A DNA stretch of 64,000 nt from NCBI GenBank assembly GCA_900316415.1, contig ONCV01000003.1, positions 1-64,000 of the forward strand, given 5' to 3'. The notes under the pieces are model-generated. The model had not been told where the DNA came from. It ran no database searches and worked only from the letters and a program-made list of their open reading frames with translations. Origin of the DNA: an uncultured Eubacteriales bacterium. Its GTDB lineage: Bacteria; Bacillota; Clostridia; Christensenellales; Aristaeellaceae. Below are positions 21,814-30,239 of the stretch, in pieces (the stretch's first letter is position 1; each line of letters opens with the position of its first letter). A program made the position numbers and the translations under genes.

Positions 21814-21842
21814 TTGATTCTTTCGCATTCCGATGATAAAAT
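21814..21842 (+). promoter_or_regulatory. Promoter of the DUF4317 gene
   Basis: TTGATT (21814-21819) and TAAAAT (21837-21842) are spaced by 17 bp. This excludes the ATG at 21833 as the start codon. The -35 boxes of the two divergent promoters are 24 bp apart. Confidence 0.7.
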
Positions 21843-21934
21843 ATTTTCCTGTCCTGCTCCTTCGGCAGGCAATCCGCGAGACCGCGGAAAGACCGCGGCT
21901 CCGGAAAGAAAAGAAGAAAGGAATTTCCAAATCG

Positions 21935-23128
21935 ATGAATCTTCGTGACCTGGCGGAAATCAAACGCCGCCTGAATCCGGACAAACGAAATCCCTCTGTC
22001 ATCTGCGGATACTATGCGGACTATCTGGGAAACCCGATTACCAGTTTCCGGCTTGCCGTGGGCATGCTGGCGGAGCAGGAAAACGAAAAATACATGGCTC
22101 TTTTCAAAAAAGCGCTTTCCGGTCAGATCGGCCAGTCGCTGATGCCCATCGGGTTTCCGGAGGAAACCCCTGAACAGATGGAGATTCTTGAAAAGCTGAT
22201 GGCCGCCCGGGATTCCGGGCTGCAGGATGAGGATGCGGTCTGTTTTCTCTTCGAACATGTGATCGCCGGCCTCCGGGCGGAGCATCCGGATATGCAGTCC
22301 GTCCAGGATGCCCAGGCCGCGAACAACTGGCTGATTCTGCTGCTCCACGATACGCTGGACGTGCGCCGTCGCGGGGCGGACGGAGAGATCGATGCCGAGA
22401 ACTCTGACCGGTCCTTCAGCTATGTTCTCTGCGCCATCTGTCCCGTAAAGCAGGCGAAGCCTGCACTGCGGTATGATCCGGAGGACAGCATTTTCCATGA
22501 CCGGACCCTTGAGTGGCTGGCAAGCGCGCCGACCCTCGGCTTTCTTTTCCCCCTGTTCGAGGACGGGGCGGCGGATGTTCACAGCCTCCTCTTTTTCAGC
22601 AAAGACAGAAACGAAGCCCACCGGGAATTCCTGCAGGCTTCCTTCCGAATGGAGGCGGTCATGCCCGCGGCGGAACAGACCGAGACCTTCCAGTCAGTGC
22701 TTTCCCAGAGCCTGGGAACGGACTGCTCCCTGGAAGTCATGCAGGAGATGCAGGAGACCGTTTCCGCCATGATGGAGGAAAGGCAAAAGGACCGGGAAGC
22801 GGAGCCGCTGATGCTGACCGGACAGGATGTAGCACAGGTGCTGACTGAAAGCGGCGTACCCGAGGAACGGGTCGAAGCCTTTCAGGAGGGATTTGACCAG
22901 GTGTTCGGTGCGGGCACGGTTCTTCCCGCAGTGAATATCGTTCCCTCGAAGCAGTTCCGGGTGGAACTGCCCGGGGTTTCCATCAAGGCGGATCCGGATC
23001 ACCGGGATCTGCTGGAAACCCGGGTCATTGACGGACGGAGTTACCTGCTGATTCCGATCGAGGGAGAGATCGAGGTCAACGGCCAGCCTGTGTTCGCGCC
23101 GAAGGTTGCGAAAGCGGACGGTCAATGA
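21935..23128 (+). CDS. DUF4317 domain protein
   Basis: The start MNLRDLAEIKRRLNPDKRN and the ICGYYAD element are typical of the DUF4317 family, which is common in gut Clostridia and has no known function. The protein is about 397 residues, acidic and soluble, with no signal or membrane segment. I start at 21935 because the upstream ATG at 21833 lies inside the promoter. AAAGGA lies 12 bases before, a slightly long spacing. It may be the first gene of the long rightward run towards recN. Confidence 0.85.
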   Translation: MNLRDLAEIKRRLNPDKRNPSVICGYYADYLGNPITSFRLAVGMLAEQENEKYMALFKKALSGQIGQSLMPIGFPEETPEQMEILEKLMAARDSGLQDEDAVCFLFEHVIAGLRAEHPDMQSVQDAQAANNWLILLLHDTLDVRRRGADGEIDAENSDRSFSYVLCAICPVKQAKPALRYDPEDSIFHDRTLEWLASAPTLGFLFPLFEDGAADVHSLLFFSKDRNEAHREFLQASFRMEAVMPAAEQTETFQSVLSQSLGTDCSLEVMQEMQETVSAMMEERQKDREAEPLMLTGQDVAQVLTESGVPEERVEAFQEGFDQVFGAGTVLPAVNIVPSKQFRVELPGVSIKADPDHRDLLETRVIDGRSYLLIPIEGEIEVNGQPVFAPKVAKADGQ

Positions 23129-23161: not shown

Positions 23162-24088
23162 ATGATTACGACCATTTGTCTGAATCCAAGCTTTGACAAG
23201 GCGGTGGAGATGGACAGCCTGCGCCTGGGTGAGGTGAACCGGATCCGGGAACTGCGGGAGGATCTGGGCGGAAAAGGGATCAACGTAGCGGTTGTAGCCC
23301 AGCGTCTGGGGCTGGATGTGCAGTGCATCGGCACCATGGGCGAAAACGGAGCGGATCAGCTGAGCGCCATGATGGATCAGGAGAAACTGAAGCATCATTT
23401 TCTTCGGATCCCGGGAAGGGTCCGAACCAATCTGAAGCTGGTTCTGAAGGATGAAAAAGGCATCACCGAGCTGAATGAGGCCGGTGCCAGGATGGATCCG
23501 GAGCATCTCCGGGCGTTCTTTGATCTGGCCCGGGAAAAGACCGCGGACAGCGATATGGTCGTGCTGACGGGAAGCCTGCCTCCGGGATGCCCGCAGGGAG
23601 TGTATCGGGATCTGATGCTGTCCCTGGAGGGAAAGAAATGCATTCTGGACTCCGAAGGCCCCGAGCTGGAGCTTGCGGCGAAGGGAGCGCATCCCTTCCT
23701 GATCAAGCCCAATCTGCATGAAATGGAAACCACGCTGGGGCTGGAGCTGCGGACGATGCGCTCCATCCGCGACGCTGCGCTGCTGTTTATCCGGCTGGGG
23801 GTGGAGCACGCGGTGATTTCCATGGGCGCCATGGGCGCCATGTACGTTGATCAGGAGCGGACCCTTTTCGCTCCCGCTCTTCGGGTTTCCACAAAATCCA
23901 CGGTCGGCGCCGGGGATGCCATGCTGGGCGGCATGCTGCTCGGGTACGAGCGGGAAGGCGATATGGCGAAGGCGTTCAAATACGGCGTTGCGGCCGGAGC
24001 GGCCAGCGTCATGACGGAGGGAACGCAGCTGATCGTTCCTTCGGATTTCTATAACCTGCTGGATCAGGTTCGGATTCAGGAGGTCTGA
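23162..24088 (+). CDS. PfkB-family hexose phosphate kinase (1-phosphofructokinase/tagatose-6-phosphate kinase type)
   Basis: The 308-residue sugar kinase begins ITTICLNPSFDKAVEM, the hallmark of the FruK/LacC branch that phosphorylates fructose 1-phosphate or tagatose 6-phosphate with ATP. GGKGINVA is the substrate-binding signature and STVGAGDAMLGG the catalytic C-terminal signature with Asp as base. No fru PTS or aldolase lies nearby, so the true substrate is uncertain. A GGGGTGAGCGG site precedes the ATG. The stop overlaps the start of the next gene (TGATG). Confidence 0.85.
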   Translation: MITTICLNPSFDKAVEMDSLRLGEVNRIRELREDLGGKGINVAVVAQRLGLDVQCIGTMGENGADQLSAMMDQEKLKHHFLRIPGRVRTNLKLVLKDEKGITELNEAGARMDPEHLRAFFDLAREKTADSDMVVLTGSLPPGCPQGVYRDLMLSLEGKKCILDSEGPELELAAKGAHPFLIKPNLHEMETTLGLELRTMRSIRDAALLFIRLGVEHAVISMGAMGAMYVDQERTLFAPALRVSTKSTVGAGDAMLGGMLLGYEREGDMAKAFKYGVAAGAASVMTEGTQLIVPSDFYNLLDQVRIQEV

Positions 24089-24594
24089 TGCGCTGGTACT
24101 TTCAGAGGCATCCGGATTTCTCGGACGGGAAGATCGACCTCTATCCGCTTCGGGATCCCGGGAATGATCCCGCACTGGGATTTCGCCGCGTCCTGGAATG
24201 GAAGATCTGCGTATCCGGAAGCAGGCAGGAAATCGGCCGGGTTACTTACCGGACCGGCGAAGGCAGGGGGATCTACTATTTCGGACATATCGGATACCAC
24301 GTGGATCCACCCTGGCGGGGAAATCATTACGCCCTGCGCGCCTGCCTGCTGATCAGGGACGTGATTCAGCGAAGCGGGAAGAGCAGCGTAATTATTACCT
24401 GCGACCCGGATAACGACGCCAGCCGAAAGACCTGCGAAGCACTGGGCTGCCTGAAGGAATGCGTTACGGACGTGGATCGGGAACTGCAGGAAAAATACGA
24501 CATCAGCGCACGGAAAATCCGGTATATCTGGAAGCTGCAGGGACGGGAGGAAGCGCATGTTCGCGGAGGCGAAGGGAACCCGAATCTATTATGA
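24088..24594 (+). CDS. GNAT-like acetyltransferase
   Basis: The 168-residue protein carries the GNAT core: GHIGYHVDPPWRGNHYA, where the acetyl-CoA loop has the form PPWRGNHYA, then ITCDPDNDASRKTCEALG, the usual B motif. It probably acetylates a small molecule or protein amine. The start codon overlaps the pfkB stop, and the last 38 bases overlap the alpha/beta hydrolase gene, so all three are translated together. Such tight packing suggests a joint pathway, but the substrate is unknown. Confidence 0.75.
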   Translation: MRWYFQRHPDFSDGKIDLYPLRDPGNDPALGFRRVLEWKICVSGSRQEIGRVTYRTGEGRGIYYFGHIGYHVDPPWRGNHYALRACLLIRDVIQRSGKSSVIITCDPDNDASRKTCEALGCLKECVTDVDRELQEKYDISARKIRYIWKLQGREEAHVRGGEGNPNLL

Positions 24595-25336
24595 AATCCG
24601 GGGAGACAGGGGAACGCCTGTGGTACTCCTGCATGGCTGGGGATGTTCCACAAAACTGATGGAAAAAACGGCCGAAGCCCTGGAAGGCGAGCACCGGGTG
24701 CTGCTTCTGGATTTCCCGGGGCATGGGCAGAGCGCTGAGCCCCCGGAGCCCTGGGGAGTTCCGGATTTTGCCGCCTGCCTGAAGGAACTGCTGGAGCAAG
24801 TTTCTTTTCTGCCCTGCGCCGCGGTGGGTCACAGCTTCGGATGCCGTGTGGCTGCCTGGGCCGCCAGCCAGTGGCCGGATATGTTTACGAAGCTGGTGTT
24901 TACCGGCGCAGCCGGGTTGAAGGCGCCCCAGAGCGAAGAGGCCAAACGCCGTTCCGAGGAATACCAAAAGAGAAAGCAGCTGGTCCGGATGGTGGAACGG
25001 GTGCCCGGGATGAAGCAGCTGGGGGAAAAGATGGAATCCCGCCTGCGGCAGAAATACGGCAGCCCCGACTATAATGCCCTGAATGAAGAAATGCGGAAAA
25101 CCTTTGTAAAGGTGGTCAATCAGGATCTTCGGGAATGCTATCCTGCGATCCGGCAGAGCACCCTGCTTCTCTGGGGAGACGCAGACACGGAAACGCCGCT
25201 GTGGATGGGCCGGGAGATCGAAAAGCTGATTCCGGACGCGGGACTGGTCATTCTCGAGGGCGGAAGCCATTTCGCCTATCTGGAACAGGCACCGCGGTTC
25301 AACACGGTGGTCAGACATTTTTTGACGGAGGAGTAA
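24557..25336 (+). CDS. Alpha/beta hydrolase
   Basis: The 259-residue serine hydrolase has the oxyanion HGWG at 26-29, nucleophile S93 in GHSFGC, a late LLWGDADTETP acid region and H238 in GGSHFAYLE, so the catalytic triad is complete. It has no signal peptide, so it is cytoplasmic. It overlaps the GNAT gene by 38 bp and lies 6 bp before a membrane Mur ligase, which is followed by ddl. A role in trimming or esterifying a wall-related or lipid-linked intermediate is possible from context only. Confidence 0.85.
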   Translation: MFAEAKGTRIYYEIRGDRGTPVVLLHGWGCSTKLMEKTAEALEGEHRVLLLDFPGHGQSAEPPEPWGVPDFAACLKELLEQVSFLPCAAVGHSFGCRVAAWAASQWPDMFTKLVFTGAAGLKAPQSEEAKRRSEEYQKRKQLVRMVERVPGMKQLGEKMESRLRQKYGSPDYNALNEEMRKTFVKVVNQDLRECYPAIRQSTLLLWGDADTETPLWMGREIEKLIPDAGLVILEGGSHFAYLEQAPRFNTVVRHFLTEE

Positions 25337-25342
25337 GGAAGC

Positions 25343-27001
25343 ATGAATCTGGCGCAGGGAGCCTTTGCGGGAGGACAGTGGATCTGGATCGCCGGGTTTG
25401 CTGTCGGATGCCTGCTGGCCTCACGCAGGCTGATCCACTGGTTTCAGCTGGAAAGCTACCAGTTTCCGGGCTATTTCCGGACGATCCGCCGGCAGGGAGG
25501 GAAGGCCTGGCTCCCCGGCGGAATCCTTTTCGCCGGGACGCTGGCGGGGGCGCTCCTGCTCCTGTGGGCGGGAAACTTATCGGCCGGCGGAGCGCTTCCG
25601 GTGCTCTGCGGAATTCTCAGCGCGCTTCTTCCTGCCCTGATCGGGCTGCTTCTCTGGAAATCCGCCCGGCGCCAGCCGGAGAAGAAAAAGCTGGCCTTCA
25701 CCCCCCGGGTCAAAAGGCTGATCGTGATCAGCCTCCTGGTCTGGATTCTGCTCCTGTGGGGCTGGAGCGCTCTGGCCGGTATCGTTTTCCCCGCGGAGAA
25801 GCAGCCGGCTCTGAATCTGGCAGCCCGGACGGCCTTTGCGCTGCTGCTTCCCCTGTGGATGGCTCTGGGAGGGCTGATTGCCTGGCCTGTTGAGAAGGGC
25901 ATCAGTGAAATGTATTTCCGGGACGCCCAACGAATTCTGCGGGAACATCCGGATCTGATTCGCATCGGCATTACCGGATCCTGGGGAAAAACCAGCGTCA
26001 AGTTTATTCTCGGAACGCTGCTCAGTGAACGCTTTCCCACGCTGGTCACGCCGGCCAGCTTCAATACGCCCATGGGCGTCACCAAGGTGATCCGGACGCA
26101 GCTGGAGCCGGGGCACCGTGTTTTTGTCGCGGAGATGGGGGCCAGGCATGTGGGCGACATCCGGGAAATGTGCCGACTGGTGCATCCGGAAATCGGCATT
26201 CTGACGTCTGTCGGGCCTCAGCACCTCGACACCTTCCATACCCAGGAACGCGTTACCCGAACGAAGTACGAGCTCATGGAAGCGATTCCCGGGGATGGAA
26301 GCTGTTTCTTTGCGGACGACGGCGGCATTGTTTTCGGACTCTGGGAAAAAACGGACAAACCCAAAACGCTTGCGGGAATGAATGCGGAACGGGATGACGT
26401 CTGGGCGGAAGAGCTGCGTGTGTCCCCGGAGGGAAGCCGATTCCTGCTTTGCACGCGGGAGGAAAAGATTCCCTGCGAAACAGCCCTGCTGGGTGAGCTG
26501 AATATTCGAAACATCGTGCTGAGCGCCGCCGTTTGCCGGAAGCTGGGAATGACCGGGAAGGAAATTGCAAGGGGTATCCGGAATCTGCAGCCGGTGGAGC
26601 ATCGGCTGGAACTGAAGCGGAATCCCGGCGGCATCACGGTACTGGACGATGCCTTCAACAGCAATATCCGCGGGGCGGAGCAGGCTTTCCGCACCCTTCG
26701 CGGATTTCCCGGAAAGCGGATTGTTGTGACCCCGGGAATGGTGGAGCTTGGAGACATGGAGATCGACATGAACCGGGAATTCGGACGGAAAATGGCCGAC
26801 TGCTGCGATGAGGCGATTCTGGTTGGCCGGAAACGGAGCGAAGCCATCTCCGAGGGCCTTCGGGAAGCAGGATTCCCGGCGGATCAGATCCATCCCGTCG
26901 GAACGCTGGCGGAGGCCGCGGAGCTTCTGAAGACGGCCGCGTCCCCGGGAGATACGATTCTGTTTGAGAATGACCTGCCGGACAACTACAGCGAGGAATA
27001 G
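25343..27001 (+). CDS. Membrane-anchored MurF-like Mur ligase
   Basis: The 552-residue protein has about five membrane helices in residues 5-185 and then a Mur ligase body. The ATP loop is TGSWGKTS at 211-218. AEMGARHVGDI and TSVGPQHLDTF match the MurF central domain. A C-terminal domain includes VLDDAFNSN, as in D-Ala-D-Ala adding enzymes. MurF normally joins D-Ala-D-Ala to UDP-MurNAc-tripeptide and is soluble, with an N-terminal uridine domain. Here that domain is replaced by membrane helices, so a membrane-bound or lipid-linked acceptor is likely. The ddl gene follows after 76 bp, consistent with supply of the dipeptide. Confidence 0.8.
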   Translation: MNLAQGAFAGGQWIWIAGFAVGCLLASRRLIHWFQLESYQFPGYFRTIRRQGGKAWLPGGILFAGTLAGALLLLWAGNLSAGGALPVLCGILSALLPALIGLLLWKSARRQPEKKKLAFTPRVKRLIVISLLVWILLLWGWSALAGIVFPAEKQPALNLAARTAFALLLPLWMALGGLIAWPVEKGISEMYFRDAQRILREHPDLIRIGITGSWGKTSVKFILGTLLSERFPTLVTPASFNTPMGVTKVIRTQLEPGHRVFVAEMGARHVGDIREMCRLVHPEIGILTSVGPQHLDTFHTQERVTRTKYELMEAIPGDGSCFFADDGGIVFGLWEKTDKPKTLAGMNAERDDVWAEELRVSPEGSRFLLCTREEKIPCETALLGELNIRNIVLSAAVCRKLGMTGKEIARGIRNLQPVEHRLELKRNPGGITVLDDAFNSNIRGAEQAFRTLRGFPGKRIVVTPGMVELGDMEIDMNREFGRKMADCCDEAILVGRKRSEAISEGLREAGFPADQIHPVGTLAEAAELLKTAASPGDTILFENDLPDNYSEE

Positions 27002-27077
27002 GAACGGAGTGAGGCAGGAGGGGCAAACGCCCTGAAAGATCCGTATGGCAGATTGAAACAGCAAGGAGCGGACAGGC

Positions 27078-28286
27078 ATGAGCAGGAAACAACTGGGAGT
27101 CATTTTCGGCAGCAGAAGCTGCGAAAGGGAAGTCGCCATTATCAGTGCGGTGCAGCTGATGCGCCACGCGGATCCTGAAAAGTATGACGTGATTCCGGTG
27201 TATATCGATGAACACGGAGGCTGGTATACGGGAGAAAAGCTGAAGGACATTCAGAGCTACCGGCCCTTTCAGCCCGGAGCGGCGGGAATTACCCGGGTAT
27301 CCCTTGATATGACCCCGGGCTCCGGCGCCCTGCTCGCGATGGAGAAAGGGAAAGGCCTTTTCGGGCGGGAAGAGCTGAAGGCCGTCGCCCGCATTGACTG
27401 CTTTGTCATCGTCATGCACGGGATGAACGGAGAGGACGGTACATTGCAGGGAATGCTGGAGCTTGCGAATATCCCCTACACTTCCTGCGGGGTGGGGGCC
27501 AGCGCGCTGGGAATGGACAAGATCCTGATGAAGCAGTTCTTCCGGGGCGGCAACCTTCCCGTCCTGCCCTCGGAATGGTTCAGTCGGTCCGTTTATGAAA
27601 AAGAACCAGAGTCTGTTCTTGATCAGGTCGAAAAACAGCTGGGCTATCCTGTCTATACCAAACCCGCCAATCTGGGTTCCAGCATCGGCGTCAGCCGGGC
27701 GGAGAACCGGGACGAGCTGCGGGATGCCCTGGATCTCGCCTTTGAATATGATCGGCGCGTGCTCGTGGAAAAGGGACTGACCCGGCCCATTGAGCTGAAC
27801 TGCAGCGTAATCGGATACGATGGGGAAGCAGAAGCGTCTCCCATCGAAATGCCCATCAGCGGAGAAGAATTCCTGGACTTTCATGAGAAATACCTGGCCC
27901 AGGGCGGAAGCAAGGGTATGGCGAGCCTGCACAGGGTCGTTCCGGCGCCGATCGAGGAAGACCTCCGGGACCGGATTCAGGAGATGAGCCGGGAGATATT
28001 CCGGATGATGGACTGCAAAGGCGTGGTCCGGATTGACTATATGTTCGACCGGGAGAGCGGAAATCTGTACATCACCGAAATCAATACGATTCCGGGAAGC
28101 CTCGCCTTCTACCTGTGGGAAAACGCGGGAGTACCCTACCGGAAGCTGATCGACCGAATGGTGGAACTGGCGGAGCGTGCGCACGCGGACAAGAATCAGG
28201 CCAATTACGCCTATACCAGCGATATCCTGCAGGGCGCCAGCTTTGGAGCAAAGGGAAGCAAAGGCGCGAAGGGCGTAAAAGGCTAA
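27078..28286 (+). CDS. ddl: D-alanine--D-alanine ligase
   Basis: This ATP-grasp enzyme joins two D-alanines for cell-wall precursors. GVIFGSRSCEREVAI at the start, MHGMNGEDGTLQGMLE, KPANLGSSIGVS and the C-terminal YITEINTIPGS are all Ddl marks. The protein has 402 residues against the usual 350-370. The extra part includes a Gly/Lys-rich tail (GAKGSKGAKGVKG) after about residue 385 that is not part of the fold. It lies just after the membrane Mur ligase. A lone D-Ala-D-X ligase with altered specificity cannot be excluded without modelling. Confidence 0.9.
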   Translation: MSRKQLGVIFGSRSCEREVAIISAVQLMRHADPEKYDVIPVYIDEHGGWYTGEKLKDIQSYRPFQPGAAGITRVSLDMTPGSGALLAMEKGKGLFGREELKAVARIDCFVIVMHGMNGEDGTLQGMLELANIPYTSCGVGASALGMDKILMKQFFRGGNLPVLPSEWFSRSVYEKEPESVLDQVEKQLGYPVYTKPANLGSSIGVSRAENRDELRDALDLAFEYDRRVLVEKGLTRPIELNCSVIGYDGEAEASPIEMPISGEEFLDFHEKYLAQGGSKGMASLHRVVPAPIEEDLRDRIQEMSREIFRMMDCKGVVRIDYMFDRESGNLYITEINTIPGSLAFYLWENAGVPYRKLIDRMVELAERAHADKNQANYAYTSDILQGASFGAKGSKGAKGVKG

Positions 28287-28373
28287 GCGCATTCCCGCAG
28301 GGTATGGCGGGGAAAGGGCGGAGCGCCTCTCCCGCGCGGCGGATTGCAGACAAGATGGGGAGGAAAGTCGGCA

Positions 28374-30239
28374 GTGCTGTTGGAACGGATCCGGAATCCG
28401 GAGGACCTGAGAAAACTGAATCAGGAGCAGGTGAAGATCCTGAGCGCGGAAATCCGGCAGGAGCTGATCCGAACTGTATCCCGGAACGGAGGCCATCTGG
28501 CTTCCAACCTGGGCGTGGTGGAACTGACCCTGGCGCTTCATCGGGTATTCGACTTCCGGAAGGATCGAATCGTCTTCGACGTAGGCCATCAGAGCTATGT
28601 CCATAAGATGATTACGGGACGTCTGGATCGGTTCGCCACCCTGCGCCAGTACGGCGGTCTCAGCGGCTTCCCGAGGCGGGAGGAGAGCGAATATGACTGC
28701 TTTGAGACCGGGCATGCCTCCACTTCCATCAGTGCGGCCCTGGGAATGGCCCGGGCACGGGACTATCTGGGGGAGGATTATTCCGTGATCGCGTTTCTGG
28801 GGGATGGAGCGCTGACCGGGGGCATGTGCTACGAGGCGCTCAATGACGCTGGCAATGCCAACACACGAATGATCGTCCTGCTGAACGATAACGAGATGAG
28901 CATCGCGAAAAATGTCGGAGCGCTCAGCTCCAGCCTGACCAATCTTCGGGTGAGCAGCGAATGGCAGAACGCGAAGCTGGCTGTTCGGCGGTTCCGTCGC
29001 ATTCCAGTCATCGGAAAGCCGGTTTACAATGTCATGCATGCCGCGAAAACCATGGCAAAAACGGCGCTGGTCCGGGCGGACAGCATCGGTTTTTTTGAAA
29101 CCCTTGGCTTTGAATATTTCGGGCCTATCGACGGACATGATGTTCCCGGCCTGGAAAAGACGCTGGAACGGGCGAAAAAATTCAACGGCCCCTGCGTGAT
29201 TCATGTCAAAACCAAAAAAGGATACGGATACGAGCAGGCGGAGGAGCGGCCGGAAATATTTCACGGCACGCCGCCCTTCCTGGTGGAAACGGGAGACCGC
29301 ATGGAGAAACCGGACTGTCCTTCCAGCGGGCATATCATGGCGGACACGCTGATGGATATGGCGGAGAAGGACTCCCGCATCGTGGCAATCACGGCCGCCA
29401 TGCCGATGGGCACGGGGCTGGATCATTTCGGTGAAAAGTTTCCGGACCGAATGATTGATGTCGGCATTGCTGAGGAGCACGCGGCGACCATGGCTGCCGG
29501 GCTGGCCGCGGCTGGAATGCGGCCCTATTTTGCGGTATATGCCACCTTCTTCCAGCGCTGTTATGACCAGATGATTCATGATGTGGCCATGCAGAAACTG
29601 CCGGTCGTTTTTCTGCTCGATCGGAGCGGCGTTGGCGGAGAGGACGGGAGAACGCATCACGGGCTGTTTGATTTTGCCGCATCGCTGCCGGTGCCCGGGA
29701 TGACGGTGCTTGCCCCCTGCGACACACGGGAGCTGAAGCAAATGCTCCGATGGACGCTGACGCAGGACGGACCCGTTATTCTGCGATATGCCCGGGCGGG
29801 CGATGATCTGACGGCGTGGCGGGAAGAATCCTTCACGCCGGGGAAATGGCAGCGCCTGCGGAAGGGAACAGACCTGAGTCTGCTTTGTGTCGGAACCATG
29901 GCCCGGCAGGGACTGCGAACCGCGGAGCTGCTTCGGGAAAAAGGCCTGGAGGCTGCTGTATACAACTGCTCCTCTGTCAAGCCCCTGGATCTGACGACCT
30001 TGAAGAAAATACAGGGGATGCCATACTTTACGCTGGAGGAGCACATGCGAACCGGCGGATTCGGGGAGTATGTACGGGAAATCTGCGCGGACAAGGGGTT
30101 CCGGGAGCCCCGGGCCTGTTTCGGCGTTGACGATCAGTTTCTGGCCCATGGCAGCCACAGCCTTCTGATGAAGGACGCCGGGTTGGATCCGGAAACGCTC
30201 CGGGACAGAATTGCAGCAAAAATGAAAGAAAGCCGATAA
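28374..30239 (+). CDS. dxs: 1-deoxy-D-xylulose-5-phosphate synthase
   Basis: This is the thiamine-diphosphate enzyme that joins pyruvate and glyceraldehyde 3-phosphate, the first MEP pathway step. Family marks are HLASNLGVVELT, FDVGHQSYVHK, FLGDGALTGGM with the cofactor motif, and DVGIAEEHAATMAAG in the transketolase domain. I choose the GTG at 28374, nine bases after GGGGAGGA, giving 621 residues, the usual length. A TTG at 28344 would add ten residues without a site. The later MEP genes ispD-ispF are fused at 48.4 kb. Confidence 0.95.
   Translation: MLLERIRNPEDLRKLNQEQVKILSAEIRQELIRTVSRNGGHLASNLGVVELTLALHRVFDFRKDRIVFDVGHQSYVHKMITGRLDRFATLRQYGGLSGFPRREESEYDCFETGHASTSISAALGMARARDYLGEDYSVIAFLGDGALTGGMCYEALNDAGNANTRMIVLLNDNEMSIAKNVGALSSSLTNLRVSSEWQNAKLAVRRFRRIPVIGKPVYNVMHAAKTMAKTALVRADSIGFFETLGFEYFGPIDGHDVPGLEKTLERAKKFNGPCVIHVKTKKGYGYEQAEERPEIFHGTPPFLVETGDRMEKPDCPSSGHIMADTLMDMAEKDSRIVAITAAMPMGTGLDHFGEKFPDRMIDVGIAEEHAATMAAGLAAAGMRPYFAVYATFFQRCYDQMIHDVAMQKLPVVFLLDRSGVGGEDGRTHHGLFDFAASLPVPGMTVLAPCDTRELKQMLRWTLTQDGPVILRYARAGDDLTAWREESFTPGKWQRLRKGTDLSLLCVGTMARQGLRTAELLREKGLEAAVYNCSSVKPLDLTTLKKIQGMPYFTLEEHMRTGGFGEYVREICADKGFREPRACFGVDDQFLAHGSHSLLMKDAGLDPETLRDRIAAKMKESR

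Follow-up and report, generated by a model that had tools for sequence, protein, structure and literature searches.

The MurF step of wall synthesis is regarded as universal, as taking place in solution ahead of MraY, and as a target for antibacterials. We have analyzed a 64,000-nucleotide stretch of DNA (hereafter the window; positions 1 to 64,000 of contig ONCV01000003.1, assembly GCA_900316415.1) from an uncultured Eubacteriales bacterium, in which three genes follow one another on the forward strand, encoding an alpha/beta (serine) hydrolase (ABH), a Mur ligase with membrane helices, called here membrane MurF (murFm), and a D-alanine--D-alanine ligase (Ddl). The best explanation of the whole, to which we give a probability of roughly 0.55, is that murFm is a membrane-integral enzyme acting as the sole MurF of its genome, most likely on a lipid-linked acceptor.

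In the Mur ligases, the uridine of the substrate is bound by the N-terminal domain, according to passages of PMC6085368 and PMC6113224. MurT is a Mur-type ligase without this uridine diphosphate (UDP) domain, and the parts of PMC3266927 and PMC6085368 that deal with it describe an enzyme whose substrate is lipid I/II instead of the soluble precursor. For MurE and MurF, a section of PMC6113224 argues that the pyrophosphate lies at the boundary between the N-terminal and middle domains, that this boundary possibly marks the exit of lipid II from the membrane, and that a UDP domain would probably collide with the membrane. Three homologous domains are described for the pseudomurein Mur ligases in a portion of PMC11915815, and the archaeal "MurF-like" protein corresponds, where PMC4153887 treats it, to a methanogenesis-linked annotation. 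No description of a membrane-integral MurF was found in the open-access literature, as represented by titles and the beginnings of abstracts, a scope outside which most subscription papers and the bioRxiv preprints fall.

A Mur ligase with a predicted membrane domain

The murFm gene (25343-27001, forward strand) encodes a Mur ligase of 552 aa, as supported by its open reading frame (ORF), Pfam, NCBIfam, AlphaFold2 models, and a tree. Two Pfam domains are recognized above the cut-off, i.e., the middle domain Mur_ligase_M (PF08245; residues 210-398, 25970-26536; E = 4.5e-32) and the C-terminal domain Mur_ligase_C (PF02875; residues 420-541, 26600-26965; E = 1.6e-15). The Pfam search gave no match in murFm to the N-terminal Mur_ligase domain (PF01225), which in the genome of the window matches MurC alone. 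The best NCBIfam model is murF TIGR01143, with 207.6 bits, below its cut-off of 288.6 bits, and the match spans only the profile positions 66-403, leaving unmatched the part (1-65) that binds UDP-N-acetylmuramic acid (UDP-MurNAc). Judged by its sequence, murFm is MurF-like in its predicted chemistry, and it is not a member of TIGR01143 by the two features tested, namely, the N-terminal domain and the score.

The UDP-binding domain is replaced by a five-helix membrane domain predicted by hydropathy and AlphaFold2 (residues 1-200; 25343-25942). Five long hydrophobic helices lie within residues 2-180 according to hydropathy and two AlphaFold2 models, whose mean predicted local distance difference test (pLDDT) is 86 for the whole protein and 91 for the membrane domain alone, and the fifth transmembrane helix (TM5) extends in these models as a 46-residue helix leading to the Mur core. 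The top structural matches of the whole model are MurF structures (4qf5, E = 2e-22, ~360 columns), and a profile search of the PDB gave MurF at 2.7e-44 vs. MurT at about 3e-5. For the membrane domain on its own, Foldseek found nothing in the PDB at E ≤ 0.001 (best 0.65), which is no proof of a new fold, and the best VIA-align hits (Z up to 5.2) were unrelated helical proteins, with no convincing PDB relative among them. The preliminary description of this locus had noticed an intact ATP loop, a MurF-like core, and five membrane helices instead of the N-terminal domain. The former two are borne out by Pfam, TIGR01143, and the alignment, and the latter by hydropathy, AlphaFold2, and the lack of a PF01225 match.

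The adenosine triphosphate (ATP) loop, recognized in the alignments, is GITGSWGKTS (residues 209-218; 25967-25996), and the catalytic set common to murFm and 30 canonical MurFs comprises T211GSxGKT, N241, E264, H294, K308, R421, D436, N439, and E468LG. The types are told apart by positions that hardly vary within either of them: canonical MurFs carry NLNN vs. SxNT in the membrane type, and end with K-G/A-S-R...E vs. the C-terminal signature ENDLPDxY, which in murFm reads ENDLPDNY (26966-26989). Within the membrane domain, conservation reaches 0.82, 0.74, and 0.90 in the predicted cytosolic segments and 0.32-0.56 in the helices, and the positive charge of the loops is concentrated on the predicted cytosolic side. 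In the alignment of 23 membrane-type rows, Q35 and Y39 are invariant in the predicted cytosolic loop 1 (residues 32-47, HWFQLESYQFPGYFRT; 25436-25483), T120, R122, and R125 in the predicted cytosolic loop 3 (residues 114-126; 25682-25720), and E184 and A195 in the segment that follows TM5 (residues 182-196, PVEKGISEMYFRDAQ; 25886-25930). TM2-TM3 are absent from two of these rows (L065 and L072), where the loop motifs are nevertheless kept. No cysteine occurs in the columns of this alignment that are at least 90% conserved, so a Cys4 zinc ribbon is not seen.

A 76-row tree of the Mur core placed the 23 membrane-type rows in one clade with a Shimodaira-Hasegawa-like approximate likelihood ratio test (SH-aLRT) support of 100. 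This clade is sister to, and not nested in, the 30 MurFs (29 from the same phylum and one from E. coli; SH-aLRT 99), and membrane type and MurF together (SH-aLRT 99) are separate from MurC, MurD, and MurE. The tree was a quick search with no bootstrap, and it left out D_L101 and D_ecoli, whose ATP loop was missed by the motif search. With this sampling, the membrane type appears as a clade of its own next to the MurFs included; the preliminary description had suggested such a comparison of the ligase with MurF.

The only MurF-type gene of the genome and its linked hydrolase

The assembly that contains the window (2.53 Mb) encodes four Mur ligases over the Pfam cut-off, i.e., MurC, MurD, MurE, and murFm. 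The dcw cluster contains MurE and MurD, and MurC is encoded next to obgE and alr, as assigned by neighbors and sequence. The order in the dcw cluster is murE-mraY-murD, where murE overlaps mraY with no murF between them, and no protein of the genome matches TIGR01143 over the murF cut-off. The ddl gene of the window is the one clear Ddl found, in addition to two weak ATP-grasp matches. DD-transpeptidase domains are present together with a MurG-like gene (249.9 bits, just below the 250.25 cut-off), and therefore a pentapeptide-dependent wall is expected. The ligase had been suggested as possibly belonging to a lipid-linked or membrane-proximal D-Ala-D-Ala-adding system distinct from normal MurF, and to be just the essential MurF if the genome held no other murF and the protein was active on UDP-MurNAc-tripeptide. 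The first half of this was found, since a canonical murF was sought elsewhere in the genome and none appeared. Thus, murFm very probably performs the essential MurF function and is the D-Ala-D-Ala-adding enzyme of the genome. The suggested system holds as a membrane-built one that differs from canonical MurF in architecture and phylogeny, but very probably not as an extra system.

The distribution of the membrane type was traced with a 22-row profile (A1). In a sample of the phylum (398 genomes, the own one included), the membrane type was found in the own genome and in 25 of the 397 others (E ≤ 1.4e-82, and ≤ 2.5e-135 in 24 of them), with matches that mostly begin near the N-terminus of the protein. 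They are followed by a gap to 1.4e-61, and the listed matches below it start at profile positions ~165-191, mostly in shorter frames, and correspond to canonical MurF. Canonical murF is lacking in 23 of these 25 genomes, while G436 and G605 carry both types. In a sample of the order (247 genomes, requested with a completeness of 90 or more), 229 genomes have an A1 match with E ≤ 1e-25 and 27 have a canonical murF over the cut-off; both types are found in one genome (G234), only the canonical type in 26, only a membrane-type match in 210, and neither in 10. The 210 were counted by threshold; among the weaker matches (1e-25 to ~1e-60), those of G036 and G039 were read singly, and they are of the membrane type, with ABH and ddl. 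Judging from these profile matches, the most common MurF of the order is the membrane type. The closest named relatives are Clostridia metagenome-assembled genomes, mostly from ruminant guts, one of them from the Christensenellaceae.

These counts bear on the possibility that a canonical murF lies hidden in the 3% of the genome not covered by the assembly, murFm being an accessory paralogue. The assembly, with 44 contigs and 97% completeness, would leave room for such a gene, but 210 of the 220 order genomes without a canonical murF carry a membrane-type match, and genomes of one or two contigs (G125 and G002) show the same pattern, which makes this explanation extremely improbable.

Within genus g38, two genomes have only the membrane type (G125 and G149) and four only the canonical type (G051, G071, G088, and G101), so that, according to their gene content, this genus is a natural swap between close species. 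In the dcw clusters of a canonical-type member (L092, G051) and of a membrane-type member (L093, G125) there is no murF between murE and mraY; the canonical murF of G051 lies elsewhere, adjoining a different ddl, and looks regained. In two genomes of family f107, a shortened, degenerate-looking murF-like frame is located between murE and mraY (7245-8237 of L096, from G436, and 7408-8208 of L094, from G505), and that of G505 has lost the ATP loop; these frames look as if the dcw murF had been decaying after the membrane type arrived. Besides its membrane MurF, G436 carries an 839-aa frame (L087, 4634-7153, reverse strand) in which a canonical MurF is followed by an alanine-racemase-like sequence, recognized by eye. 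In G049 (0.9 Mb, family f25, given as 100% complete), which has murE, mraY, ddl, and the ABH-murFm-ddl triad, the MurG matches are only weak and partial (best 1.3e-16), which points to a strongly diverged MurG or to a different glycosyltransferase. Long open frames around murFm in G191, G090, and G233 were discarded as fusions, as they turned out to be the upstream ABH region in another frame, and an 899-aa frame of G141 proved to contain a gene of 515 aa, accompanied by an ABH and a ddl of its own.

The ABH gene (24557-25336, forward strand; 259 aa, Pfam Abhydrolase_1, 2.6e-24) ends 6 bp before the start of murFm, and 76 bp separate murFm from ddl (27078-28286, forward strand; 402 aa, Pfam Dala_Dala_lig_C, 2.5e-49). 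Both the ORFs and Pfam agree with the previously described position of the ligase between a hydrolase, at a 6-bp gap, and a Ddl. The cluster is real, as had been proposed, since its architecture and gene order recur in relatives. Among 30 close relatives, ABH precedes murFm in 29, the thirtieth showing the tail of ABH at a cut contig end, and ddl follows murFm in 28, with contig ends cutting off the sequence in the remaining two. The three genes keep their order and shared strand in all 20 further genomes that were picked from many families, with an ABH-to-MurF spacing of -37 to +84 bp by ORF calls, and this recurrence argues that the architecture is not due to chance. The full triad is also present in 11 of 13 further loci of the order (L125-L137); L129 has no ddl, and L132 reaches the contig edge before ABH.

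The alignment of ABH identifies Ser93 (GHSFG; 24833-24835), which we take to be the nucleophile from family knowledge, Asp210 (25184-25186), and His238 (25268-25270), and this Ser-Asp-His triad is kept throughout the 21 rows. The PDB profile matches of ABH are generic esterases and C-C hydrolases, and none of the 25 NCBIfam models listed (of 26) reaches its cut-off, all being far below. A 13-row ABH profile matched with E ≤ 4.1e-85 in all 7 membrane-type genomes, and gave nothing better than 2.5e-34 in any of 27 genomes without the membrane type; therefore, ABH goes with the membrane MurF and not with Ddl. By these sequence matches, ABH is a linked partner of the membrane MurF.

The Ddl of the window scores over the cut-offs of NF002528 (309.9, cut-off 262) and TIGR01205 (280.3, cut-off 245.65), and the D-Ala--D-Ser and D-Ala--D-Lac models are all below theirs among the matches listed. 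Canonical murF in the same order is usually accompanied by a different Ddl. A branch with SH-aLRT 98 separates the 21 Ddls of the triads from 9 others, among which L086 is a long branch, in a tree for which the tool warned of long-branch joining, and the ddl of the window belongs to the triad-specific group. A low-complexity Gly/Lys/Ser/Ala tail with no evident function is found at the C-terminus of this Ddl (28233-28283, GASFGAKGSKGAKGVKG).

The triad could, in principle, deliver D-Ala-D-Ala, or another dipeptide, to some other lipid-linked polymer or carrier, in an organism whose wall is built without MurF. The C-terminal and some active-site motifs that differ from MurF, and the three genomes with both types, would be compatible with it. 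This is improbable, considering that the membrane type alternates with canonical MurF, that the only clear Ddl of the genome adjoins murFm, that DD-transpeptidase domains are present, and that the triad is located near murE and mraY in a pair of small genomes from family f25, with one reverse-strand frame between, and in G136 also directly after murC.

A DUF4317 protein (PF14199, E = 3.7e-106; 21833-23128) is encoded upstream of the cluster. The remaining neighbors are on the forward strand. They begin with the gene of a PfkB protein (23162-24088), and a GNAT acetyltransferase gene (24088-24594) directly precedes ABH. Downstream of ddl are dxs (28344-30239) and then, in this order, genes for a TlyA/FtsJ-type methyltransferase, an NAD kinase, ArgR, and a RecN-like protein.

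The acceptor of the membrane ligase

That murFm transfers D-Ala-D-Ala is highly likely, given how the membrane type replaces canonical MurF, the catalytic residues that it has retained, and the Ddl next to it. With regard to the acceptor, since the uridine-binding domain is gone, MurT provides an analogy, and the domain boundary is attached to a membrane helix, we would favor, if only slightly, a lipid-linked one (lipid I or lipid II). The cytosolic Mur core would use ATP and the D-Ala-D-Ala from the neighboring Ddl to extend the tripeptide stem of lipid I or lipid II to a pentapeptide, while the five-helix domain would present its conserved basic and polar cytosolic loops near the expected pyrophosphate of the acceptor. 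MraY, and perhaps MurG too, would then precede MurF in the pathway instead of following it. ABH would be the linked serine hydrolase partner, and its role can be guessed as editing or trimming at the membrane, or as that of an accessory subunit; editing of a D-Ala-D-Lac ester was considered as well. Tentatively, the lineage, understood as the order of the window and some other families, may thus have been rerouted to a pathway in which a membrane MurF with its hydrolase works after MraY/MurG, with no soluble pentapeptide UDP-precursor.

A less probable, although substantial, alternative is that murFm has the ordinary MurF function, adding D-Ala-D-Ala to soluble UDP-MurNAc-tripeptide, and that its helices merely tether it near MraY/MurG. 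Its catalytic residues are those of MurF, to which it is a sister clade, and a swap with canonical MurF inside a genus requires no new order of the pathway if the substrate is the same. However, this explanation has to do without the domain with which Mur ligases bind uridine. Helices that served as a tether alone would have no need of invariant residues in their loops, the class-specific changes in otherwise invariant MurF motifs (NLNN to SxNT, KGSR to ENDL) speak against it, and it leaves the linked ABH unexplained.

Several observations weigh against a sole membrane MurF with a lipid-linked acceptor. Staphylococcus aureus MurT was able to replace MurE on a UDP-substrate in vitro, a result given as "data not shown" in the relevant part of PMC3266927, so the loss of the domain does not in itself exclude UDP-MurNAc-tripeptide, a point that also favors the tether. 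The membrane domain has no convincing PDB match, which leaves lipid binding without structural support of its own, and the proposed chemistry offers no evident place for ABH. Both types coexist in G234, G436, and G605, and thus a one-for-one replacement is not universal. At the thresholds applied, 10 of the 247 genomes from the order have neither type. Finally, with a completeness of 97%, the assembly of the own genome might conceivably have missed a canonical murF.

Some gut Clostridia thus appear to have exchanged MurF for a membrane enzyme with a partner hydrolase. If the acceptor is lipid-linked, the textbook order of precursor assembly would not be universal, and the soluble end product would be UDP-MurNAc-tripeptide instead of the pentapeptide. 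MurF inhibitors that bind in the UDP site would presumably not act on the species with the membrane type. The natural swap inside genus g38 makes the question of the acceptor directly testable.

Comparison with known systems

Canonical MurF-Ddl pairs are found in the same order of bacteria (L084, L085, L088-L091, and L102), and in them murF adjoins ddl as it does in the window, but they have the other group of Ddl and no ABH.

The membrane type resembles MurT, of the MurT/GatD lipid II isoglutaminyl synthase, in being a Mur ligase without the UDP-binding domain, as MurT is described in a passage of PMC6113224, and, according to our proposal for murFm, in its membrane-side, lipid-linked acceptor. 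In contrast, MurT amidates D-Glu, works with GatD as its partner, and carries a Cys4 zinc ribbon, whereas murFm shows neither the ribbon nor this partner; the genes that adjoin it are ABH and ddl and not one for GatD, although no search aimed at GatD was made. Unlike MurT, murFm has membrane helices, and it is closer to MurF.

Canonical MurF (UDP-N-acetylmuramoyl-tripeptide--D-alanyl-D-alanine ligase, TIGR01143; E. coli 1gg4, A. baumannii 4qf5, P. aeruginosa 4cvk) is the best match of murFm in both sequence and fold, and they share the middle and C-terminal domains, the ATP loop, the catalytic E/H/K, R421, D436/N439, and ELG. The membrane enzyme departs from it in the five-helix membrane domain that replaces the UDP-binding N-terminal domain, in its ENDLPDxY tail, in its location outside the dcw cluster, in its linked ABH, and in forming a separate sister clade.

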